A stretch of 35,652 bases of DNA from Reyranella massiliensis 521 (lineage in GTDB: Bacteria; Pseudomonadota; Alphaproteobacteria; Reyranellales; Reyranellaceae). Positions within the stretch are counted from its first letter, which is position 1. Each line of letters begins with the position of its first letter. Positions 14,489 through 31,250 of this stretch are shown here, one piece after another. Location of the stretch: positions 1 to 35,652 of the forward strand of contig CAMAYC010000041.1 in the NCBI GenBank assembly GCA_945862125.1, in the 5' to 3' direction. A program made the translations under genes and the position numbers. The notes beneath the pieces were generated by a model. It was given only the letters and a program-made list of their open reading frames with translations, made no database searches and was not told the origin of the DNA.

Positions 14489-15511
14489 ATGGCCACCAAC
14501 CGCCGCGTGTTGCTTAAGTCGCGCCCCGAGGGCGAGCCGACCCACGCCAATTTCGATGTGGTAGAGCACCCGATCCCCGAACCCAAGGACGGCCAGTATC
14601 TCTCGCGTACCATCTGGATGTCGCTCGATCCCTACATGCGCGGCCGCATGGCCGAGACCAAGGGTTACGCCGCCAACGTCAACCTAGGCGATGCCATGGT
14701 CGGCGGCACGGTCGGCCAGGTCGTGAAATCGAAGAACCCGCGGTTCAAGGAAGGCGACTACGTCGTCGAGTATGCCGGCTGGCAGAGCTACGCCGTGTCC
14801 GATGGCACGATGAGCATGAAGCTCGATCCCAGCGCCGCGCCGCTGTCGCTGGCTCTCTCCGTGCTCGGCATGCCGGGCATGACGGCCTGGTGGGGCTTGA
14901 TGCAGATCGGCAAGCCCAAGGCGGGCGAGACCGTCGTCGTCTCCGCGGCCTCGGGCGCCGTCGGCTCGGTCGTGGGCCAGCTCGCCAAGCTGCACGGCTG
15001 CCGCGCGGTCGGCCTCGCCGGCGGCAAGGACAAGTGCGACTACGTCGTGAAGGAACTGGGCTTCGATGCCTGCGTCGACTATCGCGCGGCCGGCGCCAAC
15101 CTCTTCAAGGAGATCCGCGCCGCGGCGCCCAAGGGCATCGACGTCTATTTCGAGAATGTCGGGGGCGCCGTTCAGGCCGCCGTCGTGCCGCAGCTCAACG
15201 ATTTTGCCCGCGTGCCTCTGTGCGGACTGATCTCGCAATACAACGAGATGCAGATGAACCCCGGTCCCGACTGGCGCCTGCTGCTGGTCAAGCGCGCGAC
15301 CGTGACCGGCTTCATCGTGTCGGACCACTTCGGCCAGATGGAGGGCTTCTGGAAGGAAGTGCCCGCCGCGGTGAAGGCCGGCAAGATCAAGTACCGCGAG
15401 GACATCGTGCAGGGCATCGAGAATGCGCCGGAGGCCTTCATGGGCCTGCTCAAGGGCCGGAACTTCGGCAAGCTGCTGGTGCAGGTCGCCGAAGATCCGA
15501 CGCGGAAGTAG
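14489..15511 (+). CDS. CurA/YncB-type NADPH-dependent medium-chain reductase
   Basis: This 340-residue zinc-free member of the MDR superfamily, leukotriene-B4-dehydrogenase/CurA branch, reduces alpha,beta-unsaturated ketones or aldehydes with NADPH. Evidence: the N-terminal SLDPYMRGRM block of this branch, the cofactor loop VVSAASGAVGSVVGQLAKL (AxxGxxG), the acceptor motif VGLAGGKDKCDYVVKELG (Lys consistent with NADPH phosphate binding), YFENVGG, and LCGLISQYN. No structural or catalytic zinc Cys cluster is seen. The ATG at 14489 follows GGAGG. It ends immediately next to the HdeD-like gene on the opposite strand with no spacing. It probably serves general detoxification of reactive carbonyls and is not obviously tied to its neighbours. 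Confidence 0.92.
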   Translation: MATNRRVLLKSRPEGEPTHANFDVVEHPIPEPKDGQYLSRTIWMSLDPYMRGRMAETKGYAANVNLGDAMVGGTVGQVVKSKNPRFKEGDYVVEYAGWQSYAVSDGTMSMKLDPSAAPLSLALSVLGMPGMTAWWGLMQIGKPKAGETVVVSAASGAVGSVVGQLAKLHGCRAVGLAGGKDKCDYVVKELGFDACVDYRAAGANLFKEIRAAAPKGIDVYFENVGGAVQAAVVPQLNDFARVPLCGLISQYNEMQMNPGPDWRLLLVKRATVTGFIVSDHFGQMEGFWKEVPAAVKAGKIKYREDIVQGIENAPEAFMGLLKGRNFGKLLVQVAEDPTRK

Positions 15512-16197: not shown

Positions 16198-17043
16198 ATG
16201 ACCGACACACCCAAGAAGGAACCGGCGCCGCCGCGTCCCGCCACCACTGTTCTGCTGCTGCGGCCGTCCAGGCGCGGCGACAAGGCCTCGCCGCTCGAGG
16301 TTTTCATGGTGGTGCGTCATCACCAGATCGATTCCTTCTCCGGCGCGATCGTGTTTCCCGGCGGCAAGCTCGAGGAGGCCGACGGCGACAAGCGCCTGCG
16401 CGCCCGCTCGGGCGGCCCCGACACTATCAGCGACGATGAACTCAAGTTCCGCATCGCCGGCGTGCGCGAGGCGTTCGAGGAGTGCGGCGTGCTGCTGGCG
16501 CGCAAGCGTGGGCAGAAGGCGCTGATCGCCGCCGCCGATCTCAAGCCGATCGAGGATCGCTGGCGCGCCAAGCTCGCCAAGGACGAGGCGAGCATCCTCG
16601 ACTTGGTCGAGGCCGAGGATCTCGAGCTCGCGACCGAACTCATGACTCCCTATGCGCACTGGATCACGCCGACCTTCGTGCCCAAGCGCTTCGATACCTG
16701 GTTTTTCCTGGCCGAGGCGCCGGAGGACCAGATCGCGCTGCACGACGGATCGGAGTCGACCGACTCCGTCTGGATCGGTGCCCAGGAGGCGATCGACGAG
16801 GCGACGGCGGGCAGGCGCACGCTGGTCCACGCGACGCAGAAGAACCTCGAGTTGCTGGCCGAGGGTGGCACGGTTGCCGGTGCCATCGCTGCGGCGGCGG
16901 TGCGCAAGATCGTCACTGTCCAGCCTTGGGTCGAGAGCCGGGACGGCAAGCGCTACCTGCATCTGCCGCCAGATGCCGGCTATCGCAACCTGGTGCGGGA
17001 AATGCCGGCTCAGCCTGGCGCGGTTCCGCAGACCGGAAGGTAA
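16198..17043 (+). CDS. NUDT19-like Nudix hydrolase
   Basis: This 281-residue Nudix pyrophosphohydrolase has a split Nudix box. The leading glycines lie in VFPGGKLEEADGD (about 53-64), and the REUxEExGU core is R90-E91-A-F-E94-E95-C-G, with an insert of about 25 residues between them. That long insert is typical of the NUDT19 branch, whose characterised members hydrolyse CoA and acyl-CoA, so a CoA diphosphatase role is reasonable, and it would suit the acyl-CoA genes downstream. Mg-binding glutamates are intact. The ATG at 16198 follows GGAGA/CGGA-rich sequence. A 123-base gap separates it from the HMGS-like gene, and it is divergent from the HdeD-like gene. Substrate is inference from family. 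Confidence 0.87.
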   Translation: MTDTPKKEPAPPRPATTVLLLRPSRRGDKASPLEVFMVVRHHQIDSFSGAIVFPGGKLEEADGDKRLRARSGGPDTISDDELKFRIAGVREAFEECGVLLARKRGQKALIAAADLKPIEDRWRAKLAKDEASILDLVEAEDLELATELMTPYAHWITPTFVPKRFDTWFFLAEAPEDQIALHDGSESTDSVWIGAQEAIDEATAGRRTLVHATQKNLELLAEGGTVAGAIAAAAVRKIVTVQPWVESRDGKRYLHLPPDAGYRNLVREMPAQPGAVPQTGR

Positions 17044-17166: not shown

Positions 17167-18609
17167 ATGGTCGGAATCGTCGCCTTCGGCGCCTATGTGC
17201 CGCGCCTGCGCCTCAACCGTCAGGCGGCGTACGACGCCAATAAATGGTTCGCTCCCGGCCTGCGCGGTCTCGCCAAGGGCGAGCGCTCGATGGCCAACTG
17301 GGACGAGGATGCGATCACCATGGCGGTCGAGGCGTCGCGCGACTGCCTCACCAGCCACAAGGCCGAGGACGTCCGCAACATCTACTTCGCCTCGACGACG
17401 CATCCCTTCAAGGACCGCCAGAACGCCGGTGTCATCGGCACGGCACTCAACGTCGAGCAGAACCTCTCGGCGACCGACATCGGCGGCTCGCTGAAGGCCG
17501 GCACCTCGGCGCTGATCGCCGGCCTCAACGCCTCCAAGGACGGCGCGCCGTCGCTGGTGGCGGCAGCCGACAAGCGCATGGCCCGCGTCGCCTCGGCCAA
17601 CGAGCTCAACTACGGCGACGGCGCCGCGGCCCTGCTGTGCGGCACCGAGAACGTGATCGCCAAGCTGGTCGGACACCATTCGGTGTCGATGGATTTCGTC
17701 GATCACTTCCGCGGCGAGGAGTCGGAGTTCGACTACGGCTGGGAAGAGCGCTGGATTCGCGACGAGGGCTACTCGAAGATCGTGCCGCCGGCGATCAAGG
17801 CCGGCCTCGCCGCCTGCAAGCTCAAGGGCAGCGACATCACCCACTTCATCATGCCGAGCCTGATGCCGGCGGTGCCGAAGCAGATGGCCAAGATGGTGGG
17901 GATCGGCGAAGGCGCGGTGCGCGACCTGCTGGGCGCCTCGCTCGGCGACACCGGGGCGGCGCACGCGCTGGTCATGCTGGTCGACGCGCTCGAGACCGCC
18001 AAGGCCGGCGACAAGATCATGGTCGTGGCCTTCGGCCAGGGCGTCGACATCCTGGTGTTCGAGGTCACGGCCGAGAACGCCAAGCTTGCCAAGCGCAAGG
18101 GCCTGTCGGGCTGGATGGCGCGTCGCAAGGAAGAGAAGAACTACATGAAGTTCCTCGCCTTCAACGACATGCTGCCGATCGACAAGGGCATGCGCGCGGA
18201 GTTCGACAAGAAGACGGCGCTCTCGGTGCTGTGGCGCAAGCGCGACATGATCTACGGGCTGGTCGGCGGCAAGTGCAAGGTCTGCGGCACGGTGCAGTTC
18301 CCGCGCAGCCAGGTCTGCGTCAATCCCAACTGCCACGCCATCGACAGCCAGGACCCCTACGCGATGGCCGGCCTCGAGTGCAACGTGATGTCGTTCACCG
18401 CCGACTCGCTGGTCTATTCGCCGGACCCGCCGGGTTACTACGGCATGATCACCTTTCCCGAGGGCGGGCGCTTCATGGCTGACTTCACCGACAGCGACAA
18501 GGATCAGGTGAAGGTTGGCGCCAAGATGCGCATGACATTCCGCATCCGCGACAACGACACGATGCGCGGCGGCTTCAAGCGTTACTTCTGGAAGGCGGCT
18601 CCCGTCTAA
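17167..18609 (+). CDS. HMG-CoA-synthase-like domain fused to DUF35 (zinc ribbon/OB fold), catalytic residues lost
   Basis: This 480-residue protein has a thiolase-fold HMG-CoA-synthase-like domain (about 1-330) followed by a DUF35 module: a zinc ribbon with C370, C373, C384 and C389, then an OB fold. In archaea these are separate proteins that bridge thiolase and HMG-CoA synthase and share a pantetheine channel. By eye, the nucleophile block ACKAGT reads SLKAGT (Cys to Leu109), the SES acid block reads STT (Glu to about Thr77), and the FHxP block reads FIMP (no His). HMG-CoA synthesis by this chain is therefore unlikely; a scaffold, acyl-CoA-binding or transfer role is more likely. GGAGG precedes the ATG at 17167. 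An active-looking thiolase follows 56 bases later. Confidence 0.85.
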   Translation: MVGIVAFGAYVPRLRLNRQAAYDANKWFAPGLRGLAKGERSMANWDEDAITMAVEASRDCLTSHKAEDVRNIYFASTTHPFKDRQNAGVIGTALNVEQNLSATDIGGSLKAGTSALIAGLNASKDGAPSLVAAADKRMARVASANELNYGDGAAALLCGTENVIAKLVGHHSVSMDFVDHFRGEESEFDYGWEERWIRDEGYSKIVPPAIKAGLAACKLKGSDITHFIMPSLMPAVPKQMAKMVGIGEGAVRDLLGASLGDTGAAHALVMLVDALETAKAGDKIMVVAFGQGVDILVFEVTAENAKLAKRKGLSGWMARRKEEKNYMKFLAFNDMLPIDKGMRAEFDKKTALSVLWRKRDMIYGLVGGKCKVCGTVQFPRSQVCVNPNCHAIDSQDPYAMAGLECNVMSFTADSLVYSPDPPGYYGMITFPEGGRFMADFTDSDKDQVKVGAKMRMTFRIRDNDTMRGGFKRYFWKAAPV

Positions 18610-18665
18610 ATCGCCTTCCACCGGTCAAAGGTCTAGAATTCCAACCCCACTACAGGAGGCCTGCC

Positions 18666-19865
18666 ATGGCTCGGGGCATCAAGGACAAGGTCGCTATTCT
18701 CGGTATGGGCTGCTCGAAGTTCGGCGAACGCTGGGACAGCGGCGCCGAAGAGCTGATGCTCGAAGCCTACAAGGAATGCCTGAAGGACGCCGGGATCGAC
18801 CAGAACCAGCTCCAGGCGGCTTGGTTCTCCACCGCCATCGACGAGGTCCATGTCGGCAAGTCGGGCATTCCGCTCAGCACCACGCTGCGCCTGCCCAACA
18901 TCCCGGTGACGCATGTCGAGAACATGTGCGCCTCGGGCACCGAGGCCTTCCGCGGCGCCTGCTATGCCGTGGCCTCCGGCGCGGCCGACTTCGCTCTGGC
19001 CCTCGGCGTCGAGAAATTGAAGGACACCGGCTACGGCGGCCTTCCCGGCGGTCGCGGCGGCCCGCTGCAGGCCCTGTGGAATGCGAGCGGCACGGCGCCG
19101 GGCAACTTCGCCCAGCTCGCCACCGCCTACATGACTGCCCACGGCGTGAGCGGCGAGGACCTCAAGAAGGCGATCGGCCACGTCTCGTGGAAGAGCCATC
19201 AGAACGGTGCCAAGAACCCGAAGGCCCACCTGCAGAAGGCCGTCGAGATGGACACCATCCTGAACGCGCCGATGATCGCCTCGCCGCTCGGCTTGTTCGA
19301 CTGCTGCGGCGTGTCGGACGGTGCGGCGGCAGCCATCGTCACCACGCCCGAGATCGCCAAGGCGCTCGGCAAGAAGGACATCGTCAGCGTCAAGGCGCTG
19401 CAGCTCTCGGTCTCGAACGGCTCCGAGTCGGGCCATAATTCGTGGGACGGCAGCTACTTCCACACCACGCGTATCGCCTCGAAGAAGGCCTATGAAGAGG
19501 CCGGCATCAAGAGCCCGCGCGACGAAGTGTCGATGTTCGAGGTCCATGACTGCTTCTCGGTCACCGAGCTCGTGACCATGGAAGACCTGCACATCTCCGA
19601 GACCGGCAAGGGCTGGAAGGACGTGCTCGACGGCTTCTACGACGCCGACGGCAAGATTCCCTGCCAGATCGATGGCGGCCTCAAGTGCTTCGGCCATCCG
19701 ATCGGCGCCTCGGGCCTGCGCATGCTCTACGAGATGTACCTGCAGATCCAGGGCAAGGCCGGCGCGCGCCAGCTCAAGAACCCGCGCATCGGCATGACGC
19801 ACAATCTGGGCGGCGCGCCGCGCGAGAACATCTCCAGCGTGGCCATCGTCGGCCGCTACGAGTAA
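18666..19865 (+). CDS. Thiolase, SCP-x/archaeal acetyl-CoA acetyltransferase type
   Basis: This 399-residue thiolase forms or cleaves 3-ketoacyl-CoA. The nucleophile is C88 in VENMCASGTEA, followed by H294 in MFEVHDCFSV and C341/H344 in GGLKCFGHPIGASG. The classical second active-site Cys of the C-terminal CxGGG loop is not there (THNLGGAPREN), as in the SCP-2/archaeal branch where the CxGHP-like site is used instead. The catalytic set looks complete, in contrast to the HMGS-like partner upstream. GGAGG precedes the ATG at 18666. An intrinsic terminator lies just after the stop. The pairing with an HMGS-like/DUF35 protein recalls the archaeal thiolase/HMGCS/DUF35 complex. Acyl chain specificity unknown. 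Confidence 0.92.
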   Translation: MARGIKDKVAILGMGCSKFGERWDSGAEELMLEAYKECLKDAGIDQNQLQAAWFSTAIDEVHVGKSGIPLSTTLRLPNIPVTHVENMCASGTEAFRGACYAVASGAADFALALGVEKLKDTGYGGLPGGRGGPLQALWNASGTAPGNFAQLATAYMTAHGVSGEDLKKAIGHVSWKSHQNGAKNPKAHLQKAVEMDTILNAPMIASPLGLFDCCGVSDGAAAAIVTTPEIAKALGKKDIVSVKALQLSVSNGSESGHNSWDGSYFHTTRIASKKAYEEAGIKSPRDEVSMFEVHDCFSVTELVTMEDLHISETGKGWKDVLDGFYDADGKIPCQIDGGLKCFGHPIGASGLRMLYEMYLQIQGKAGARQLKNPRIGMTHNLGGAPRENISSVAIVGRYE

Positions 19866-19948: not shown

Positions 19949-20410
19949 ATGGAGCTCGACAAGAAGCTTATCGGACACACGTTCAAGCCGTTCACGACCA
20001 CCGTCGAGGCCGGCAAGATCCGCCTTTTCTGCAAGGCCATTGGCGAGGACGACCCGATCTACAGCGACGAGGCGGCGGCCAAGGCCGCGGGCTATCGTGG
20101 CGTCACCGCACCGCCCACCTTCCTGCGGGCCCTGCAGGCTGACGATCCCAACAAGGGTGGACTGCTGAAGCTGCTCAACGTCGACATCGGCCTGATCCTG
20201 CATGGCGAGCAGCACTTCGAGTATTTCGCGCCCGTCGTGGTCGGCGACAAGGTGACCTGCCAGGAGAAGGTGGTCGACATCTACGACAAGAAGGGCGGCG
20301 CGCTTTGGTTCGTCGTCCAGGAAATGGAGATGAAGGACCAGACGGGCAAGCTCGTGGCCAAGGGCAAGGGCGTGACCGTCGTGCGCAACCCAGACGCTGC
20401 TAAGAAGTGA
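19949..20410 (+). CDS. MaoC-like N-terminal-type hotdog protein (FAS1-like dehydratase, HadA/HadC-like)
   Basis: This 153-residue single-hotdog protein of the MaoC_dehydrat_N type is the partner subunit of heteromeric enoyl/3-hydroxyacyl hydratases such as mycobacterial HadA-HadB. The block IGEDDPIYSDEAAAKAAGYRG matches the family, but the hydratase His of the D-x4-H motif is Tyr here (DDPIY), as in the non-catalytic HadA-type subunit that shapes the acyl channel. VTAPPTFLRAL is the following strand-turn. A strong GGGAGGGAG precedes the ATG at 19949. The catalytic-looking MaoC partner begins 11 bases after its stop, so a heterodimer is very likely. It follows the terminator, and so may also have its own promoter, which I could not identify. 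Confidence 0.87.
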   Translation: MELDKKLIGHTFKPFTTTVEAGKIRLFCKAIGEDDPIYSDEAAAKAAGYRGVTAPPTFLRALQADDPNKGGLLKLLNVDIGLILHGEQHFEYFAPVVVGDKVTCQEKVVDIYDKKGGALWFVVQEMEMKDQTGKLVAKGKGVTVVRNPDAAKK

Positions 20411-20421
20411 GGGAGGCAGAT

Positions 20422-20844
20422 ATGGCAACCATTCCGAAGTTCGACCAGGTCAAGGTTGGCGATGAGCTGAAGCCGCTGGTGCTGCCGCCGGTCAGCCGTC
20501 ACCAGCTCGCGCTCTATTGCGGCGGCTCGGGCGATCACAACCCGATCCATGTCGATCTCGACTTCGCCAAGAAGTTCGGCTTCAAGGACGTGTTCGCTCA
20601 CGGCATGCTGTCGATGGCTTTCCTCGGCCGCCTCGTGACCAGCTATGCGCCGTCGAACAGGGTGCGCAAGCTCGGCACGCGCTTCACCTCGATCACCTGG
20701 GTCGGCGACGTCATCACCGTCAGCGGCAAGGTTACGGGCAAGCGCGAGGAGAATGGTGAGAAGCTGATCGACCTCGAGGTCAAGTGCACTAACCAGAACG
20801 GCCAGGACACGCTGCAGGGCCACGCCACCGTGGCGGCCGCCTAA
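20422..20844 (+). CDS. MaoC-like (R)-specific hydratase/dehydratase catalytic subunit (HadB-like)
   Basis: This 140-residue MaoC hotdog protein carries the hydratase-2 motif GDHNPIHVD with D38 and H43, followed by FGFKDVFAHGMLSMAFLGRL. These residues add or remove water across 2-enoyl-CoA/(R)-3-hydroxyacyl-CoA. With the His-lacking partner immediately upstream it should form the catalytic half of a heterodimer like HadAB or the steroid-pathway ChsH1/ChsH2 pair. The ATG at 20422 follows GGGAGG; an in-frame GTG at 20407 lies inside the preceding gene and is unlikely. The SDR dehydrogenase follows 22 bases later. Whether it works in synthesis or breakdown cannot be decided from sequence. Confidence 0.9.
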   Translation: MATIPKFDQVKVGDELKPLVLPPVSRHQLALYCGGSGDHNPIHVDLDFAKKFGFKDVFAHGMLSMAFLGRLVTSYAPSNRVRKLGTRFTSITWVGDVITVSGKVTGKREENGEKLIDLEVKCTNQNGQDTLQGHATVAAA

Positions 20845-20866: not shown

Positions 20867-21691
20867 ATGGGTCAGATGGATGGCAAGGTGGCGATCGTCA
20901 CCGGTTCGGGTCGCGGCATCGGCAAGGAGATCGCGCTCCGCCTGGTGCGCGACGGCGCCAGCGTGGTGATCAACGACATCGACGACGCCCCGGCCACGGA
21001 GACCGTGGCCGAGATCGTGAAGATGGGCGGCAAGGCGGTGGCCTGCAACGGTGACGTCGCCAAGCCGGACTTCGGCGACCGTATCGTCAAGACCGCGGTC
21101 GATGCCTTCGGCGATTGCCATGTCGTGGTGAACAACGCCGGCTACACTTGGGATTCGGTCATCCAGAAGATGAGCGACGAGCAGTGGTACGCCATCCTCG
21201 ACGTTCACCTGACGGCACCCTTCCGCATCCTGCGCGCCTTCCAGATCCACCTGAAGGAAGCCGTCGAGAAGGAGCGGGCGGCCGGCAAGCGCGTCGTGCG
21301 CAAGGTCGTGAACATCTCCTCGACCTCCGGCGTCAACGGCAATGCCGGCCAGTCGAACTACTCCGCCGGCAAGGCAGGCATCATCGGTCTCACCAAGACG
21401 CTGGCCAAGGAGTTCGGCCGCTACGACGTCACGGTGAACGCGGTGGCCTTCGGTTACATCCAGACGCGTCTCACCAAGCCGCTGTCGCAGGGCGAGTCGG
21501 GCGAGATCGAAGTCCAGGGCCGCAAGGTCAAGATCGGCGTTCAGGGTGGCCGGATTGCCGCGATGAACCAGATGATTCCGCTCGGCCGCGGCGGCCTGCC
21601 GGAAGAGGCGGCGGGGTCGGTCTATCTCTTCTGCAGCCCCGACAGCGACTACGTCAGCGGCCAGTGCCTGGTGGTCAACGGCGGCCTTTGA
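20867..21691 (+). CDS. Short-chain dehydrogenase, 3-hydroxyacyl-CoA/3-ketoacyl reductase type
   Basis: This 274-residue classical SDR has a cofactor loop TGSGRGIG (about 12-19), NNAG, the catalytic Ser in NISSTSGVNG, and YSAGK for Tyr and Lys. It has the VVNGGL C-terminus of FabG-like enzymes. A 25-residue insert near GESGEIEVQGRKVKIGVQGG before the substrate helix makes it resemble the multifunctional-enzyme/17beta-HSD4-like and actinobacterial 3-hydroxyacyl-CoA dehydrogenases. An Asp after the second strand (INDIDD) favours NAD(H). CAGGAGAAG precedes the ATG at 20867. It completes a hydratase, dehydrogenase, thiolase set with the genes upstream, and its stop overlaps the TTG start of the next gene. 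Confidence 0.92.
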   Translation: MGQMDGKVAIVTGSGRGIGKEIALRLVRDGASVVINDIDDAPATETVAEIVKMGGKAVACNGDVAKPDFGDRIVKTAVDAFGDCHVVVNNAGYTWDSVIQKMSDEQWYAILDVHLTAPFRILRAFQIHLKEAVEKERAAGKRVVRKVVNISSTSGVNGNAGQSNYSAGKAGIIGLTKTLAKEFGRYDVTVNAVAFGYIQTRLTKPLSQGESGEIEVQGRKVKIGVQGGRIAAMNQMIPLGRGGLPEEAAGSVYLFCSPDSDYVSGQCLVVNGGL

Positions 21692-22914
21692 GCTCCGTTG
21701 GAAAGCTAGAGGTTGGCGTTGTCGGTTGCGGTGTCGCCGGCCAGGCGGCAGCGACCCTGCTCGCCGATGAAGGCCATCGCGTTACCGTCTTCGAGCGCTT
21801 TGCCGAACCCAGGCCGTCGGGGGCCGGCCTGCTTCTGCAGCCGACCGGCCTCGCCGTGCTGCGCCGGCTCGGCCTCGATGAGCAAGCGGAGCGGCTGGGC
21901 GCCCGGATCGACGGATTGCAGGGCCTCAATCATCTGAAGCATACGGTCCTCGATCTCGCTTATGCCGACCTGCATCCCGCGGCCTTTGGGCTGGGGATCC
22001 ATCGCGGTTCGCTGTTCGAGCTGTTGCACGGCAGGCTGCGGCAATCGAGGGCCCGCCTGATCACCGATGCGGAGATCGTTGACGTCGTGCGCGATGGCGG
22101 CCGGGCAACGGTGGTCGACAAGGCAGGTACCCGGCACGGTCCTTTCGATCTCGTCGTGGCGGCCGACGGAGCACACTCGCGCCTGCGGGAACGGCTCATG
22201 CCGCAGGCACGGGCGCCGCTTTATCCCTGGGGCTGCATCTGGGCGACGGTGGCCGACAGCCGCGACATGATCAGCGCGCCCGCCATGCTGCAGCAGCGTG
22301 TCCGAGGCACCACGACGATGATGGGACTGCTGCCGGTGGGACAGCACCGGGTCACCCTGTTCTGGAGCCTGCCGGCCGCCGCATTGGAGGCCGGCCGCCC
22401 GATCGACCTCGAAGCATGGCGGTTCGAGGCGCTTGAACTCTGGCCGGAGGCGGTGGCGCTGATCGAGCAGGCGGCCAACGCCGACGACTTCGCGCGCGCG
22501 ACCTACCGGCATGTCGCATTGCCGCACTGGAACGACGGACCGGTCCTGTTCATCGGCGATGCGGCGCATGGCACCAGCCCACAACTCGGCCAAGGCGCCA
22601 ATCTCGGGCTGCTCGATGCCCATGCCTTGTCGCGTGCATTGGCTGCCAGTGACGACCTTGTCGCAGCGCTGGCCCTGTTTGCACGCCGGCGCGGGCCGCC
22701 CTCGCGCTTCTATCGCCAGGCCAGCCATCTGCTGACCCCGTTTTTCCAGTCGAACCAGCCGCTGCTCGGACTGGCGCGGGACGCGCTGATGGCCGTCGCC
22801 TGCCGCGCGCCAGGTCTGCGCCCGATGATGACGTCGACGCTGGCCGGCTTGAGGCGCGGCTGGCTGTCGGCCGATGCGCTCGACGCTGAGGGCCGTTACC
22901 CGCTCGATCCCTAG
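21688..22914 (+). CDS. FAD-dependent monooxygenase (UbiH/PHBH-like), TTG start
   Basis: This 408-residue class A flavoprotein monooxygenase shows VGCGVAGQAAATLLADEGH (Rossmann GxGxxG), FERFAEP, the DG block VVAADGAHSRLRERL, and the GD block VLFIGDAAHGTSPQLGQGAN. The C-terminus is a short helical tail without the thioredoxin-like domain of the first monooxygenase. No ATG or GTG lies near the conserved start; the TTG at 21688 overlaps the SDR stop (TTGA) and places the N-terminus eight residues before the first strand, so I take it as the start with coupled translation. The 3' end overlaps the AraC gene in a shared CTAG. Substrate unknown; co-expression with the acyl-CoA module is inference. 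Confidence 0.85.
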   Translation: MSSVGKLEVGVVGCGVAGQAAATLLADEGHRVTVFERFAEPRPSGAGLLLQPTGLAVLRRLGLDEQAERLGARIDGLQGLNHLKHTVLDLAYADLHPAAFGLGIHRGSLFELLHGRLRQSRARLITDAEIVDVVRDGGRATVVDKAGTRHGPFDLVVAADGAHSRLRERLMPQARAPLYPWGCIWATVADSRDMISAPAMLQQRVRGTTTMMGLLPVGQHRVTLFWSLPAAALEAGRPIDLEAWRFEALELWPEAVALIEQAANADDFARATYRHVALPHWNDGPVLFIGDAAHGTSPQLGQGANLGLLDAHALSRALAASDDLVAALALFARRRGPPSRFYRQASHLLTPFFQSNQPLLGLARDALMAVACRAPGLRPMMTSTLAGLRRGWLSADALDAEGRYPLDP

Positions 22915-23741
22915 GCGCTGGCGCGCGACAGCGCGGCCCAGCGGCCGGGCGTCAGGCCGAAGCGCGCCGAGAAGTGCCGGGTGAGGTGGCTCTGGTCGGC
23001 GAAGCCCGTCGCCGCGGCGGCCTCCGACAGTGCCATTCCGCCAGCGATCATCATGCGTGCCCTGACGAGGCGCCGTCCGACCTGGAAGCGATGCGGGGAG
23101 GTGCCGAAGGCGGCGCGGAAGTGCCGGGCGAGCGCGAATCGGTCGAGACCGCTCAGGCGTTCGAGTTCTTCCGAGGCGATCGTGCGGGAGGCTTCGGCCG
23201 TCAGGAAGTCGCGGACGCGTCCGACGGCACGAAAGGCGACCGCACGGCGGCCAGTTGCCTTGCGCGGCGACGGCCGTGCGGAGTCGGCACGCGCAGCCAG
23301 GCCTTCGGCCAGCCGGCCAACGACGGTATCGACGGCCAGCGGCTCCAGGCTGCGTGGAAAATCGGCGAAGGCTTCGTGCAGGATGGCGGCGAGGGCGGGA
23401 TCTGCCGCCACGGCGTCCGGCACGAAGGGCGGCGGCATATCGCCGAGCGCTGCGGAGATCGCCGCAGGATCGACATAGAGCATTCGGTAGGCGAAGCCGT
23501 CGGCAACGCCCGCGTGGCCGTCATGCGCCTCGTCGGGATGGAGCACGATGACCTGTCCGGCCCGGCTCGCCGTGCGCGCGCCGCGGTAGTGGAATGCCTG
23601 AACGCCGCGCAGCGTCAGTCCAACTGCATAGGTCTCGTGCCGGTGCAGGTCGTAGGCGTGGCCGCCAAATCGTGCCGCCAGGCGCTGCAGCCCGGCGTGC
23701 GGCTCATCGAAACGGATCTGGTCCGGCGCGATCGTCGACAT
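22911..23741 (-). CDS. AraC-family transcriptional regulator
   Basis: This 276-residue regulator has an N-terminal cupin-like sensing domain (about 15-95, with LHRHETYAVGLTLRG and VIVLHPDEAHDGHAG) and a C-terminal AraC DNA-binding domain with two helix-turn-helix units (about 175-272). The second carries ALSEAAAATGFADQSHLTRHF, and the end reads FGLTPGRWAAL, close to the family's F-x-x-x-x-G-x-x-P-x-x-[FY]-R/W signature. The ATG at 23741 is chosen because upstream in-frame codons run through the divergent gene. It is transcribed away from the amidase genes across a 48-base gap, so those are its most likely targets; the FAD monooxygenase it converges with is another candidate. Ligand unknown. 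Confidence 0.9.
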   Translation of the reverse strand: MSTIAPDQIRFDEPHAGLQRLAARFGGHAYDLHRHETYAVGLTLRGVQAFHYRGARTASRAGQVIVLHPDEAHDGHAGVADGFAYRMLYVDPAAISAALGDMPPPFVPDAVAADPALAAILHEAFADFPRSLEPLAVDTVVGRLAEGLAARADSARPSPRKATGRRAVAFRAVGRVRDFLTAEASRTIASEELERLSGLDRFALARHFRAAFGTSPHRFQVGRRLVRARMMIAGGMALSEAAAATGFADQSHLTRHFSARFGLTPGRWAALSRASA

Positions 23742-23789
23742 GATGGATTGCCTCATGCAGTCTGGCATCGCCATTGCAGGACAGACAGC

Positions 23790-23989
23790 ATGCCCGATAC
23801 GCCATCTCAAGACGAAATCGTCCGCCTCGCCCGACAGGCTGGCCTCGATCTGCCATAGGCCTCGACGAACTCGTCGAGGCCTATGGCCATGTACAGGCGA
23901 TGATCGCGCGCCTGCCTGCGGGGCGGCCGCACGGCGACGAGCCGGCACACACCTTCGTGCCGCAGAAATTCCAGCCGGCGAAGGAGTAG
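23790..23989 (+). pseudogene. Broken GatC/AtzG-like small partner of the amidase (frameshift)
   Basis: From the ATG at 23790 (AGGA upstream) the frame reads MPDTPSQDEIVRLARQAGLDLP and stops at 23856-23858. The -1 frame continues without interruption as LDELVEAYGHVQAMIARLPA and on to FVPQKFQPAKE, stopping at 23987-23989. Joined, these give about 66 residues that look like the small GatC-like partner encoded beside many amidases: an N-terminal IVRLARxAGLDLP helix, a second helix, then a DEPAHxFVP tail. The break falls at a perfect palindrome. No slippery heptamer is seen, so programmed shifting is unlikely; a real mutation or a sequencing/assembly error are the choices. The amidase ribosome site (AAGGAG) lies in its last codons. 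The family label is from memory and pattern. Confidence 0.6.
23852..23887. repeat. Perfect palindrome, 17-bp arms with 2-base centre
   Basis: GCCATAGGCCTCGACGA (23852-23868), the centre AC, and TCGTCGAGGCCTATGGC (23871-23887) are exact reverse complements. Both strands would encode a GLDE-L/F-VEAYG-like peptide. The left arm contains the stop codon that ends the first half of the broken small gene, and the right arm is coding in its second half. No T-tract follows, so it is not a terminator. Perfect arms of this length inside a coding sequence suggest template-switch correction of a quasipalindrome, or a fold-back artefact. Confidence 0.92.
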
Positions 23990-23992
23990 GCT

Positions 23993-25381
23993 GTGTCGGA
24001 TCCAGCTTTTCTCACCATCGCCGAGGCGTTGAAGCTCATCGCCGCCCGTAAGCTGTCGCCCGTCGAGCTGACCGAAGCGTACCTCGCCCGGATTGTGCAT
24101 CTCGACCATCTGCTGGACAGTTTCGTCACCCTGACGGCCGAGCGCGCGCGCGCCGAGGCCAAAGTCGCCGAAGCTGCGGTCATGGCCGGCAAGACGCTCG
24201 GCCGGCTGCACGGGATTCCCTATTGCCTGAAGGACATCTTCGACACGGCCGGCATCCGCACGACGGCGATGTCGAAGCTGCTGGCCGACAATGTTCCAGC
24301 GCGGGATTCGTTCTGCCAGGAGCGGATGGCGGCGGCGGGCGGCATTCTGCTGGGCAAGAACGCCACCTGGGAGTTCGCCCACGGCGGGCCGTCGTGGGAC
24401 GTGCTGTTTCCACCGGCGCGCAATCCGTGGCACCGCGACCATTCACCGGCCGGTTCGTCCTCCGGCTCCGCGGCGGCTGTCGCCGCGGGCTTCTCGCCGG
24501 CCACGCTCGGCAGCGACACCGGCGGGTCGATCCGCGGTCCAGCCGCCGCCTGCGGCATTGCCGGTCTGAAGCCGACCTACGGTCTGGTCAGCCGGCGCGG
24601 CGTCATTCCCAACTGCTTTACCCACGATCATGCCGGGCCGCTGGCCTGGACGACCGAGGACGTGGCGATCCTGATGCAGGTCATCGCCGGTCACGATCCG
24701 GAGGATCCTGGCTCTGCCGACGTGCCCATTCCCGACTACTGCGAGGCACTCACAGGCGACGTGCGGGGCCTGGTGATCGGCGTGCCAGCGGACTGGCTGG
24801 AGAAGGAGCTGCCGCTGGCGCCAGCCACAAAGGCAGCCTTCGACGCGGCGCTGGAAGTGTTCCGCGGTCTCGGTGCCACGGTGCGGCCGGTCGTCTTGCC
24901 GCCGCTGCAACAGTTCGATGACGCCAAGAAGATCATTGCCGTTGCCGAACTCTTCACCATCCACGGCCGGGATCTGCGGACACGGCCTGAATTGTTCGGC
25001 GCCAGCCTGCGATATCGGATCATTGCCGGCGGCCTGGTGCGCGCCGAGGACTATATCCAGGCCCAACGCCAGCGAACCGATCTGGCGCGGGCGATGCAAA
25101 AGGTCATGTCGACGGTCGATCTGTTGATGCTGCCGACGGGCGAACCGGCGGGAAAACTCGAACCTGTCCCGCCCTCGACCCTGTTCACCAAGGCCTCGCT
25201 CACCACGCCGTTCAACGTCGGCGGCAATCCCGCCCTGTCGATCTGCAGCGGCTTCGCCGCCAATGGCCTGCCGTTCTCCCTCCAGATCGTCGGCCGGCTG
25301 TTCGACGACGCCACCGTCCTGCGCGCGGGCGACGCCTACGAAAAGGCGACGCCTTGGCGCGACAGGCGGCCGGCGCTGTAG
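23993..25381 (+). CDS. Amidase-signature family hydrolase, GatA/AtzE-like
   Basis: This 462-residue amidase-signature enzyme hydrolyses a C-N bond using a Ser-cisSer-Lys triad. K80 (IPYCLKDIFDTAG), S155 (AGSSSGSAAA) and S179 (GSDTGGSIRGP) have the 75- and 24-residue spacings of GatA. GTG at 23993 is the start, with AAGGAG seven bases upstream overlapping the end of the small upstream gene; this coupling also argues the small gene was a real partner. A GatA role in tRNA charging is unlikely because no gatB is nearby and the context is catabolic. A DUF2000 gene follows at 25431. If the small subunit is needed, loss of its frame could impair activity. The amide substrate is unknown. Confidence 0.91.
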   Translation: MSDPAFLTIAEALKLIAARKLSPVELTEAYLARIVHLDHLLDSFVTLTAERARAEAKVAEAAVMAGKTLGRLHGIPYCLKDIFDTAGIRTTAMSKLLADNVPARDSFCQERMAAAGGILLGKNATWEFAHGGPSWDVLFPPARNPWHRDHSPAGSSSGSAAAVAAGFSPATLGSDTGGSIRGPAAACGIAGLKPTYGLVSRRGVIPNCFTHDHAGPLAWTTEDVAILMQVIAGHDPEDPGSADVPIPDYCEALTGDVRGLVIGVPADWLEKELPLAPATKAAFDAALEVFRGLGATVRPVVLPPLQQFDDAKKIIAVAELFTIHGRDLRTRPELFGASLRYRIIAGGLVRAEDYIQAQRQRTDLARAMQKVMSTVDLLMLPTGEPAGKLEPVPPSTLFTKASLTTPFNVGGNPALSICSGFAANGLPFSLQIVGRLFDDATVLRAGDAYEKATPWRDRRPAL

Positions 25382-26214: not shown

Positions 26215-28026
26215 TCAGGCCAGGAAGAGGCGGGCGCCCGTCGGCGAGGCGCGGGCCTTGTCGAGGCATTCCATCGTGGTGCGGTAGCCGACCTCCACAG
26301 CCGAGTCGAAGCTCGTCCAGTCGAGCAGGTCGATATGGTTCATCGGCGGCACGATCAACATGTCGGCGATGGCGCGATCCTCCTGCGCCCGCTCGGTGCT
26401 GGCGACCAGGGCCGAACGTAACAGGATGCGCACGATCGACGGGATCGGCAGCGTCTCGTCGCGCTTCCACAGCAGACGGCGGAAGAATTGCCAGGCCGAC
26501 CAGGGCTCCATGGCGTCTGCACCGGCAGCCAAAGCGCCGCCGGTGTCGATGTCGACACCGATGGTGACGCCGCGGCCCATGCGGCGCATCGCACGTACCG
26601 GGAAATTGTCGATGACGCCACCGTCGACATGGACTTCGCCGGCCTGGTTGAAGGGTGGCAGGACGCCCGGAATTGACACGCTGGCCCTGAGCCAGCGCCA
26701 CAGCCGTCCGACCGTGTGGATATCGGCCTTGGAGGTCGTGAGGTTGGCAGTGACGCAAAAGAAGGGCAGCGCCAGGTCCTCGATGTCCATTTCGTCGAAC
26801 GCCGCACGCAGCAGGGCCGCGACGCGGCGTCCGGCGAACAGCGAGATCGCCGGGATGGTGTAGTCACTGAGCGGATTGGCATCGACGAACGACCGCCGGA
26901 ACCGAGTGACTAGCTCTTCGTCGGTCCAGCGCGCCGCCACCCCGGCGGCCACGATGGCGCCCATGCTGGTGCCTCCGATCAGGTCGATCGGCACGCCCGA
27001 GGCACGCATCGCCTTGACGACCCCGATGTGGGTGAAGGCTCGCGCGCCGCCGCCCGCCATCACGAGGCCGACCGCGTGTCCCGTCAGGAGACGGCCCAGC
27101 CGGTCGATGTCGGCATGCAGGTCGAGCCGCACATGATGATGCTGGCCGTAGAGTCCGCCCGCCAGCAGGGGTGCCGTCGAGCCGGGCGCGGGCTCGTGGC
27201 CCTCATGCAGCAGCACCAGTTCGCGGCGGCGATGGAACACGGCGCCTGCCCGCGCCATCTCGATCTCGAAGGGAAGTTTGGTCGGGAGGTCGGAGTCGGC
27301 GCTGCGCACCACCACCAGGCAGTCGGCCTGGCGCAGGCAGAGTTCGGTCCAGGGTGTGAGCGTCGGATCGGCGCGGTAGAGGACGAAGGACGATTCCATC
27401 TCGCAGCGTGCGAACCACTCCGGTTCCTGCCCCAGGGAGTCGGATCCCAGAAGCTGGACCTGATTGCCGATCCGGCCGAGGGCGCTGGCCAGCAGCACCG
27501 CGAACCGCGCCGCCGGCACGTCCGGGCCCGATGGCAGGATCGCGAAAGTCCGGGGCTGCCGTCGGCGCTTGCCGGGCGGGACGGCGTTGCGCGCCGCGAC
27601 GTAGCGCATGAGCGTCGGCAATACCTCATGGTGCACCGCCGTCAGGGAGTCGAAGTCGGCCCGCGCCAGGCGCCAGACCTCGCTGTCGCGCAGCGCCGCG
27701 ACGCTGCGCGTGCGCTCGCTTTCGGACAGCAGCGACATCTCGCCCACGATATTGCCGGGTGTGATCTCGGCAATGAGGAGCGGCTCCTCGCCCTCGGCAT
27801 CCTCGTGCCGGAACACGCCGAGGCAGCCGCTCGCCACGAGATAGACCGCATCGGCGGCCTCGCCCTGGCGAAACAGTGGCGCGCCGCCAGGCAGGACGAG
27901 CAGCGTGAGCTGGTGCTCGACGGCCATGAGGCTCTTGGTGTCGAGGTCGGCAAACAGGGGCGCATGCTGAAGCGCCCGGCGGAGCCGCAGCCGGGAGGCG
28001 TCCTCGCTCGATGCGACGATGCTCAC
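26215..28026 (-). CDS. Cyclic-nucleotide-domain patatin-like phospholipase (NTE/RssA-like)
   Basis: This 603-residue protein is related to bacterial neuropathy-target-esterase homologues. An N-terminal cNMP-binding-type domain spans about 20-140 (FRQGEAADAVYLVASGCLGV, IVGEMSLLSESERTRSV). A middle domain (about 158-310) precedes the patatin domain: oxyanion GGGARAF (325-331), nucleophile S354 in GGTSMG, and D468 in VDGGVIDNFP. It probably hydrolyses phospholipids or lysophospholipids at the membrane. The GTG at 28026 is taken as start, ten bases after the DUF2817 stop, with GAGG upstream. No transmembrane segment is clear. Ligand binding by the cNMP-like domain cannot be assumed, since many such domains are degenerate. 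Confidence 0.9.
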   Translation of the reverse strand: MSIVASSEDASRLRLRRALQHAPLFADLDTKSLMAVEHQLTLLVLPGGAPLFRQGEAADAVYLVASGCLGVFRHEDAEGEEPLLIAEITPGNIVGEMSLLSESERTRSVAALRDSEVWRLARADFDSLTAVHHEVLPTLMRYVAARNAVPPGKRRRQPRTFAILPSGPDVPAARFAVLLASALGRIGNQVQLLGSDSLGQEPEWFARCEMESSFVLYRADPTLTPWTELCLRQADCLVVVRSADSDLPTKLPFEIEMARAGAVFHRRRELVLLHEGHEPAPGSTAPLLAGGLYGQHHHVRLDLHADIDRLGRLLTGHAVGLVMAGGGARAFTHIGVVKAMRASGVPIDLIGGTSMGAIVAAGVAARWTDEELVTRFRRSFVDANPLSDYTIPAISLFAGRRVAALLRAAFDEMDIEDLALPFFCVTANLTTSKADIHTVGRLWRWLRASVSIPGVLPPFNQAGEVHVDGGVIDNFPVRAMRRMGRGVTIGVDIDTGGALAAGADAMEPWSAWQFFRRLLWKRDETLPIPSIVRILLRSALVASTERAQEDRAIADMLIVPPMNHIDLLDWTSFDSAVEVGYRTTMECLDKARASPTGARLFLA

Positions 28027-29730: not shown

Positions 29731-31188
29731 TCAGCTGTAGGCCGGTGGCGGTTCGAAGCTGCGGTATTCCTTCTCCAGCAGCTTGGCGAACTCGATACAG
29801 GTGTAGTCGCCGTACTGCGGGCCGATGATCTGCACGCCGATCGGCAGCCCTTCCTTGGTCTGGCCGATCGGGGCGGCCGTCGAGGGCAACCAGGTGACGC
29901 CGGAATAGCCCGCCCAGAAAATCTGGTCGACGACGGGCACCTTCTTGTTGTTGACCACGATGGTGCGCAGATGGCGCAAGCCCTTCTGGTCGTGCGGAAA
30001 GGCCGCCGTTACGGCGACCGGGCACAGCATCAGGTCATAGTCCTTGAAGAACTCGTCCCAGGCCCAACGCATCTTGTGCCGCTTCTCGTTGAGCCGCAGC
30101 CAGTCGCGGTGCGCGAGCGAATTGCCGCGCTGCATCTGGGCGAAATAGCTCATGTCGTCGGACGGCAAGGTGGCCGCGTCCTTGACGGCCTGCTCGTAGA
30201 CGGCATCGGCCATGCGGGCCGAGGTCGCCGCGCGCAGCAGGCGGATGTAGACATCGTTCAGCTCCACCGTGTCGATGGCCGGCCGCGCCTTGTCGCTGAC
30301 CTTGGCTTTGTTCTTGGCGAGGAACGACGCAAGCTTGGAAATCTGCTCCTGCACCGAATCGTCGACTTCGGCATTGGGGTCGGTCAGCAGCACGGCGACC
30401 TTGAAGTCGCGCAGCCTGGTCTTCTTCGAGCGCGGCAGGCTGAGCGTCCAGCCGCGGCCGTCGAGCGCATCGGGCCCGGCCATCGCGTCCATGGCGATCT
30501 CGAGGTCCGCCGCGCCACGCGCCAGCGGTCCCACGACGCCGATGTCGCCATAGGCGACGGCACCGGCCAGCGCATGGCCCTTGGGCGAGACGACGCCCCA
30601 GCTCGGCTTGTGGCCCCACACGCCGCAATAGTGGGCGGGGTTGCGGATCGAGGCGCCGATGTCGCTGCCGGCCTCGATGCCGGTGAGGCCGGCGGCCAGC
30701 GCCGCGCCCGAGCCGCCCGACGAGCCGCCCGGCGTGCGGCCGAGGTCCCACGGATTGTTGGTCGAGCCGTAGACCTCGTTGTAGCTCTGCCAGTCGGCTA
30801 GGTTCAGCGGGATATTGGTCTTGCCGAACAGCGTCACGCCGGCCTTCTTCATGCGCTGCACGACCAGTGCGTCGGTCTTGACGATGGCGTCCTTGAACGC
30901 CGGGTCGCCCCACGTCGTCGGATACCCGGCGATATCGAAGGATTCCTTGATGGTCATGGGCACGCCGTGCAGCGGCCCCAGCTTCTTGCCGGCCTTGACC
31001 GCCTTGTCGGCGGCCTTGGCCTGCTTGCGGGCGCCCTCGATGTCGGTGGCGATGATGGCGTTGAGTTCGGGGTTATAGGCCTCGACCCGCTTGAGATAGA
31101 GGTCGAGAAGCTCGACGCAGCCGATCTTCTTCTTCCGGACCGCGGCAGCGAGCTGCTTGGCAGTCTGGAACGGGAGGGCGAGGGACAT
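29731..31188 (-). CDS. Amidase-signature family hydrolase
   Basis: This 485-residue amidase has an intact triad: K81 (GVPMTIKESFDIAG), cis-Ser S156 (TPGGSSGGSGAA) and nucleophile S180 (GSDIGASIRNPA). It differs clearly from the amidase at 23993, with the NIPLNLADWQSYNEVYGSTN and CGVWGHKPSWGVVSPKG blocks of the fatty-acid-amide/acylamidase branch. A central insertion rich in Lys (about 285-310, LASFLAKNKAKVSDKA) is visible. The start is taken at ATG 31188, though a frame open to 31224 also exists and the ribosome site is weak. It heads a five-gene minus-strand run (amidase, apt, DUF2817, patatin, SnoaL-like). Substrate unknown. Confidence 0.92.
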   Translation of the reverse strand: MSLALPFQTAKQLAAAVRKKKIGCVELLDLYLKRVEAYNPELNAIIATDIEGARKQAKAADKAVKAGKKLGPLHGVPMTIKESFDIAGYPTTWGDPAFKDAIVKTDALVVQRMKKAGVTLFGKTNIPLNLADWQSYNEVYGSTNNPWDLGRTPGGSSGGSGAALAAGLTGIEAGSDIGASIRNPAHYCGVWGHKPSWGVVSPKGHALAGAVAYGDIGVVGPLARGAADLEIAMDAMAGPDALDGRGWTLSLPRSKKTRLRDFKVAVLLTDPNAEVDDSVQEQISKLASFLAKNKAKVSDKARPAIDTVELNDVYIRLLRAATSARMADAVYEQAVKDAATLPSDDMSYFAQMQRGNSLAHRDWLRLNEKRHKMRWAWDEFFKDYDLMLCPVAVTAAFPHDQKGLRHLRTIVVNNKKVPVVDQIFWAGYSGVTWLPSTAAPIGQTKEGLPIGVQIIGPQYGDYTCIEFAKLLEKEYRSFEPPPAYS

Positions 31189-31250
31189 GTGCGGGATTCC
31201 GTGCAGACGGTGGACGAGACCCAAGTCCGTACCATATTGTCCGGTCCGCC

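Follow-up and report, generated by a model that had tools for sequence, protein, structure and literature searches.

What an HMG-CoA synthase-like domain that has lost its catalytic residues is doing beside an intact thiolase is the question raised by a locus of Reyranella massiliensis 521. The locus lies in the window analysed here, that is, the whole stretch of 35,652 nucleotides of contig CAMAYC010000041.1 (assembly GCA_945862125.1), in which one gene joins a 3-hydroxy-3-methylglutaryl-coenzyme A (HMG-CoA) synthase (HMGS, also HMGCS)-like domain to a DUF35 module and the next encodes the thiolase:

17167 to 18609, forward strand: HMGS-like/DUF35 fusion, 480 residues from an ATG start (HMGS-like domain, zinc ribbon and OB fold)
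18666 to 19865, forward strand: SCP2-type thiolase, 399 residues from an ATG start, 56 bp after the fusion (C88, H294-D295-C296-F297, G343-H344-P345)

It is probable that the two genes encode one heteromeric catabolic 3-oxoacyl-CoA thiolase with a non-catalytic pseudo-HMGS/DUF35 partner. The evidence observed directly comprises the anatomy of the sequences, the loss of catalytic residues across the family, co-occurrence, gene order and relatedness.

Both open reading frames (ORFs) carry a strong coding signal, the G+C content of third codon positions (GC3) being 0.93 for the fusion and 0.91 for the thiolase. The HMGS-like domain occupies about residues 1-335 of the fusion (residues 1-329 match the curated model NF003274 at 8.5e-52 and 176 bits) and is followed by a low-confidence linker at about 334-361 and then by the DUF35 module (zf-ChsH2 and OB_ChsH2_C), in which a four-cysteine zinc ribbon (364-391) precedes an OB fold (406-459), both exceeding the Pfam cut-offs. 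The putative zinc ligands C370, C373, C384 and C389 are all present and metal binding is predicted. SLKAGT stands at 108-113, STT at 76-78 and isoleucine at 228; the two ORFs, the zinc cysteines and these motifs are as an earlier note, made from this DNA alone, had described them. The best curated model for the HMGS-like domain is that of archaeal-type HMGS, and an AlphaFold2 (AF2) model of the fusion, built from 35 homologues, matches the HMGCS of the archaeal acetoacetyl-CoA thiolase/HMGCS/DUF35 complex of Methanothermococcus (6ESQ) most closely in fold (6esq_I; Z 39.6, root-mean-square deviation 2.3, 320 residues), this chain, PhlA (Z about 38) and MucA (Z 35) standing above all others. These three are also the closest solved proteins to the HMGS-like domain, PhlA being the best sequence match, and the DUF35 half matches 6esq_E and PhlB in sequence.

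Given that the pair has all three modules in common with 6ESQ, it could be argued that it makes HMG-CoA as an archaeal-type thiolase/HMGCS complex. However, this is extremely improbable for three reasons: first, the archaeal HMGCS is unfused and catalytic, with Cys114 and Glu82 as catalytic residues (PMC6392133), whereas in Reyranella all three HMGS catalytic residues are lost and beta-oxidation genes follow. Second, the fusion falls short of the family cut-offs, scoring 176 against 244 bits for NF003274 and 124 against 353 and 38 against 360 for two other curated models. Third, a genome-wide profile search found no HMGS over the family cut-off in the whole genome of the window, which has one fusion gene. 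True HMGS activity was rejected on the catalytic residues and the cut-offs.

The extent of the catalytic loss was followed in an alignment of 129 fused proteins, from Alpha- and Betaproteobacteria, Actinobacteria and Haloarchaea, with Methanothermococcus HMGS, two PhlA and MucA. Relative to the Methanothermococcus enzyme, the window fusion (whose nearest relatives in the genome collection are up to 99% identical) has L109 for the cysteine, T77 for the glutamate and I228 for the histidine. Among the 129 fused proteins the nucleophile is Gln in 68, Leu in 46, Met in 5, Thr in 3, Arg in 2, Ala in 2 and Pro, Gly or His in one each, and never Cys (0/129); the glutamate column holds Thr (126), Ser (2) or Ala (1) and never Glu (0/129); and residue 228 is Ile, Val, Cys, Ala or Ser and never His. 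Methanothermococcus HMGS and two MvaS-type HMGS (one from Methylobacterium, one from a Streptomyces mevalonate cluster) have Cys, Glu and His in the same columns, so the alignment is able to detect these residues when present. Judged by these columns, the HMGS-like domain is a predicted pseudoenzyme throughout its family, as the earlier note had proposed, and the cysteine at position 109 that it had named as contrary evidence did not appear in any homologue. The homologue set was collected outward from the window protein and is mostly from Reyranella and other alphaproteobacteria, and a fused protein with an intact cysteine could exist elsewhere. Of the three replacements that might have been fixed, Thr77 is close to it (126/129); Leu109, with glutamine the commoner residue, and Ile228 are not. 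Two unfused alphaproteobacterial HMGS-like relatives (L145 and L146; GSPQAG), at whose loci a thiolase is also encoded, are likewise Cys-less; they belong to another alphaproteobacterial family and cluster with fused haloarchaeal proteins (support 94/85), so the fusion may have arisen or been lost more than once.

The frequency of glutamine at the nucleophile position (68/129) raises the possibility that the domain keeps, or has gained, a chemistry of its own, for example as a KSQ-like decarboxylase with Gln replacing the nucleophile, to which the conserved H266, D179, R182, D104 and E146 might contribute. This is quite unlikely: the position is also Leu (including the window protein), Met, Thr, Arg, Ala, Gly, His or Pro and, being so variable, suits no single chemistry, the FHxP histidine is lost throughout, and the domain diverges faster than the thiolase. 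The KSQ-like decarboxylase was rejected on the freely varying nucleophile position and the missing histidine. The polar residues that at least 90% of diverse bacterial fusions share and that Methanothermococcus HMGS has as well (R15, D46-E47-D48, D104, E146, D179, R182 and R195) mostly recur in PhlA or MucA; a conserved Cys/His/Glu trio, the displaced set that the earlier note had named as further contrary evidence, was not found in the HMGS-like half at the sequence level across the diverse bacterial fusions.

A Cys-less HMGS-like subunit accompanied by a thiolase and DUF35 is known from PhlABC (PpATase, the Friedel-Crafts acylase of Pseudomonas protegens; also CsATase and MucABC). PhlA is without the HMGCS cysteine (Gly115) and glutamate (Cys83), and acyl transfer is by PhlC alone, with all three subunits required (PMC6392133). 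Given the three shared modules, PhlA as the best solved match of the HMGS-like domain and the absence of the cysteine from PhlA and MucA as well, the Reyranella pair might, instead of being a catabolic thiolase, be a PhlABC-like C-acyltransferase with a biosynthetic function, acyl transfer of the Claisen or Friedel-Crafts type. Nevertheless, this is unlikely for three reasons: first, in a tree holding only three Cys-bearing HMGS and only four Phl/Muc-type rows, the Phl/Muc/Priestia clade (100/99), the fused clade (98/99) and the Cys-bearing HMGS (88/79) are three separate groups. Second, the thiolase is nearest to archaeal and SCP2-type thiolases, its relatives among solved structures being the archaeal thiolase of 6ESQ (6e-51) and the benzoylsuccinyl-CoA thiolase BbsAB (7pxp, 3e-44), with PhlC far lower (1e-17). 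Third, no polyketide synthase or nonribosomal peptide synthetase (NRPS) gene lies nearby; acyl-CoA dehydrogenases, CoA transferases, hydratases and acyl-CoA ligases are found instead. PhlABC is moreover made of three separate chains, biosynthetic and CoA-independent in its acyl transfer, whereas the Reyranella system has the HMGS-like and DUF35 parts on one chain, a catabolic setting and an HDCF thiolase. The Priestia member of the tree is an unfused PhlA-like protein (FSGKSGT) of a Priestia megaterium plasmid (L147, 3992-6770), whose gene is accompanied by those for a thiolase and a zinc-ribbon protein. An NRPS and a condensation-domain protein are encoded next to them, and the three look like an acyltransferase of the PhlABC/MucABC type within a natural-product cluster.

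The partner thiolase scores 692 bits against NCBIfam PRK06157 (cut-off 403), and C88, H294, C341 and H344 are all present, as had been described. Across the partner thiolases C88 and HDCF are each invariant (109/109) and H344 with GHP is found in 107/107 where aligned; with a nucleophilic cysteine, HDCF and GHP, the protein is of the SCP2 (archaeal) type and is predicted to be active. The catalytic role earlier given to C341 did not stand: this column is Ser or Ala in 7/109 and C296 of HDCF is invariant, so that C296 is likely the second catalytic cysteine and the variable C341 was ruled out. The same motif bears on the proposal that the pair acts as a retro-aldolase of the Sal/Shy or Ltp2/ChsH2 kind, which are accompanied by DUF35 partners and hotdog hydratases as here, and which would suit the steroid degradation clusters among those similar to this one. 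HDCF is the SCP2-thiolase motif and the aldolases differ from it (YDCY in Sal, YDHF in Ltp2), and a dehydrogenase superfluous for an aldol route is encoded in the same operon; a retro-aldolase is thus very unlikely, and the Sal/Ltp2 type was rejected on the motif.

The order of the two genes, their overlaps, their shared occurrence and their congruent divergence tie the fusion to the intact thiolase, as the earlier note had supposed. A close thiolase (E<=1e-100) was found in 39 sampled alphaproteobacterial genomes, the fusion being present in 39/39; a long fusion match was found in 40 genomes, the counts coming from two alphaproteobacterial samples and the fortieth genome (G238) lying perhaps outside that used for the thiolase. 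The two genes are adjacent (<=250 bp) in 107/126 loci and at most 8 kb apart in 7 more, and in 7/126 the fetched DNA was too short to hold a neighbouring thiolase; the conserved thiolase neighbourhood, whose absence would have spoken against the link, is therefore present. For five loci without a thiolase in short flanks, a whole-genome search located it at a distance of 1-2 kb in four and, in G372, on a contig other than that of the fusion, as is also the case in G506. An overlap of 1-8 bp between the two annotated ORFs is seen in Novosphingobium, Rhodococcus, Mycobacterium and Streptomyces and also, with the genes in reversed order, in haloarchaeal records. All 61 Reyranellaceae genomes searched (61/61) have the fusion in single copy, a few matches being partial and on short contigs, and G529 has an additional weak match covering DUF35 only. 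Copy numbers of the two genes mostly match (two of each in G039 and G167), the window's genome having one fusion and two thiolases. Across 46 non-redundant pairs, distances between fusions and between thiolases are correlated at r=0.93, the highest value among 2,000 permutations being 0.51; of the two proteins the fusion is the faster to diverge, its median identity being 49% and that of the thiolase 67%.

The direction in which such an enzyme would work is suggested by its neighbours, which in the window are as follows:

16198 to 17043, forward strand: NUDIX-like protein upstream of the fusion (ORF listed from 16156; Pfam NUDIX 3.5e-4, just under the cut-off)
19949 to 20410, forward strand: hotdog (R)-hydratase subunit, HadA/MFE-2-hydratase-N like (Pfam FAS1_DH_region 1.9e-40, MFE-2_hydrat-2_N 7.1e-12; solved relatives HadA, ChsH1, MFE-2)
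20407 to 20844, forward strand: MaoC/HadB-like hydratase subunit (Pfam MaoC 1.6e-21; solved relatives HadB, (R)-specific enoyl-CoA hydratase), its start lying 4 bp inside the gene before it (GTG as listed; a start about 15 bp further on is also possible)
20867 to 21691, forward strand: short-chain dehydrogenase/reductase (SDR), nearest among solved structures to 2et6, the (3R)-hydroxyacyl-CoA dehydrogenase of yeast MFE-2

The hotdog pair matches HadA/HadB, ChsH1/ChsH2 and MFE-2, and the SDR dehydrogenase matches 2et6 at 1.9e-68 against 4.6e-49 for the best FabG and also resembles BbsD. The order fusion, thiolase, HadA-like, MaoC/HadB-like, SDR is conserved in Reyranella. The NUDIX-like gene has the same place in Reyranella and is absent from basal relatives, so it is probably outside the enzyme; NUDIX and medium-chain dehydrogenase/reductase (MDR) genes were rejected as parts of the system, being absent in basal Reyranellaceae and other alphaproteobacteria. 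In basal Reyranellaceae, CaiB and up to three acyl-CoA dehydrogenases are encoded upstream of the pair, and in other taxa the pair lies among acyl-CoA dehydrogenases, CoA transferases, hydratases and acyl-CoA ligases: in Novosphingobium ES2-1 within a cluster resembling the published estrogen edc cluster, and in Rhodococcus and on a Mycobacterium avium plasmid within ring-hydroxylating-dioxygenase clusters. These neighbours favour degradation and an R-specific beta-oxidation, from which direction and substrate are drawn. The Reyranella genes for thiolase, reductase, dehydratase and the upstream MDR reductase could also make up an operon for chain elongation, as the C-acyltransferase explanation would have it; the 'pulling' of condensation suggested in the earlier note is not supported in this catabolic setting. 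One alphaproteobacterial branch (L069-L083), with sugar epimerases, a TPR/SPOR protein and an amidohydrolase between and around fusion and thiolase, gave no clue to the substrate, and scans for promoters and terminators at and around the operon did no better than on shuffled sequence. In the Rhodococcus and M. avium plasmid loci (L134, L140, L144), ring-hydroxylating dioxygenase subunits, an acyl-CoA ligase and several enoyl-CoA hydratases surround the pair, resembling the ipf (ibuprofen) set, in which the thiolase IpfD and the OB-fold protein IpfE release propionyl-CoA.

For the heteromeric thiolase we infer a physical complex, a scaffold role, a thiolytic direction and a substrate along the following lines. 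The thiolase subunit would carry all the chemistry, with C88 as the acyl-carrying nucleophile and H294/C296 of HDCF and H344 of GHP as acid-base and oxyanion residues. The DUF35 module may dock on the thiolase and link it to the HMGS-like domain, so that two chains would reproduce the three-chain arrangement of the archaeal complex and PhlABC; the HMGS-like domain, without nucleophile, Glu and His, may have been retained for scaffolding or to form one wall of the acyl-CoA cavity. An R-specific beta-oxidation probably ends with this complex, through thiolysis of a 3-oxoacyl-CoA, perhaps bulky or alpha-branched, that the products of the downstream genes, the HadA/HadB-like hydratases and the MFE-2-like dehydrogenase, would supply. 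Peroxisomal MFE-2 with the SCPx thiolase offers a parallel in its hydratase 2, (3R)-hydroxyacyl-CoA dehydrogenase and SCP2-type thiolase, whereas the Reyranella functions are on separate polypeptides; SCPx has, to our knowledge, no HMGS-like or DUF35 partner. BbsAB, a thiolase that is likewise catabolic, comes from the same branch of the superfamily and has a DUF35 partner; unlike the Reyranella pair, it is not known to contain an HMGS-like domain.

Several observations weigh against this heteromeric thiolase. H266 is family-specific and kept in 57/62 diverse bacterial fusions, and the HMGS-like domain may therefore have some new residual function. The AF2 model has a predicted local distance difference test score of 74.7, with the linker 334-361 and several loops poor. 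The window's genome encodes a paralogous second thiolase (C37:5442-6632; 69% identity) but no further fusion protein to go with it; this thiolase may share the fusion subunit or function without it. The congruent divergence also follows from simple co-inheritance. The Reyranella operon is without acyl-CoA dehydrogenase or CoA-ligase genes, and the upstream enone-reductase-like MDR (14489-15511) would fit a chain-elongating direction too. Finally, three of the four zinc cysteines are replaced in eight sampled lineages, and the predicted zinc ribbon seems to have decayed repeatedly while the pairing with the thiolase persists. The ribbon pattern C-T-S-x (three Cys replaced) was seen at L103, L107, L108, L110, L111, L113, L119 and L122, and all four cysteines are gone at L128 and L135. 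The second thiolase (L158) adjoins P450-like and MDR-like genes.

A bolder possibility, which is doubtful, is that the fusion is active rather than passive: a remodelled pocket (Gln, Leu or Met for Cys; H266, D179, R182) would bind half of a bulky acyl-CoA or its pantetheine arm, or catalyse a non-Claisen step, and thiolysis of alpha-branched or polycyclic 3-oxoacyl-CoAs would depend on it. The two-chain machine would then represent a general, unrecognised type of thiolase with which bacteria and haloarchaea break down steroids, terpenoids and aromatic acids.

The earlier note's suggestion that the system is undescribed has to be narrowed, since PhlABC is characterised, a 2010 structure paper listed DUF35 fusions to thiolase-superfamily members and called PhlA inactive (PMC2954200), and a catabolic member was noticed before in the estrogen edc cluster; the principle is thus already known. 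In the parts consulted of the 2020 paper on Novosphingobium tardaugens, the 'HMG-CoA synthase' EGO55_13555, encoded with the thiolase EGO55_13550, is placed outside the known HMGS groups, its condensation activity is doubted and its role is left unassigned, and no description of a fusion or of the cysteine loss was found there (PMC7793797). The edc-like cluster of Novosphingobium ES2-1 has a Cys-less HMGS-like/DUF35 fusion overlapping the thiolase gene, with only about 30% identity to the window protein. A Cys-less HMGS subunit accompanied by thiolase and DUF35 is not new (PhlA); what is new is the combination of fusion, universal cysteine loss and catabolic setting, and no description of the fused catabolic family as such, its universal catalytic loss or its tight thiolase pairing was found in the open-licence literature searched. 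The heteromeric thiolase gives a testable role to proteins annotated 'OB-fold protein', '3-oxoacyl-ACP synthase III C-terminal domain protein' or 'HMG-CoA synthase', found in about one-sixth of sampled alphaproteobacterial genomes and core in Reyranellaceae, and proposes one for the gene left unassigned in the estrogen-degradation pathway (PMC7793797). If true, these genes have been wrongly annotated as mevalonate enzymes, and a thiolase produced without its partner may seem inactive, like separately expressed Phl subunits.

Further along the window, a patatin/NTE-like phospholipase with a cyclic-nucleotide-binding domain is encoded near the operon on the reverse strand (26215-28026), and the same type lies directly downstream of the operon in a basal relative (L058, 12885-14732). 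Two amidase-signature genes stand on opposite strands about 4-7 kb apart (23993-25381, forward; 29731-31224, reverse), with an AraC-type regulator (22911-23948, reverse) near them.

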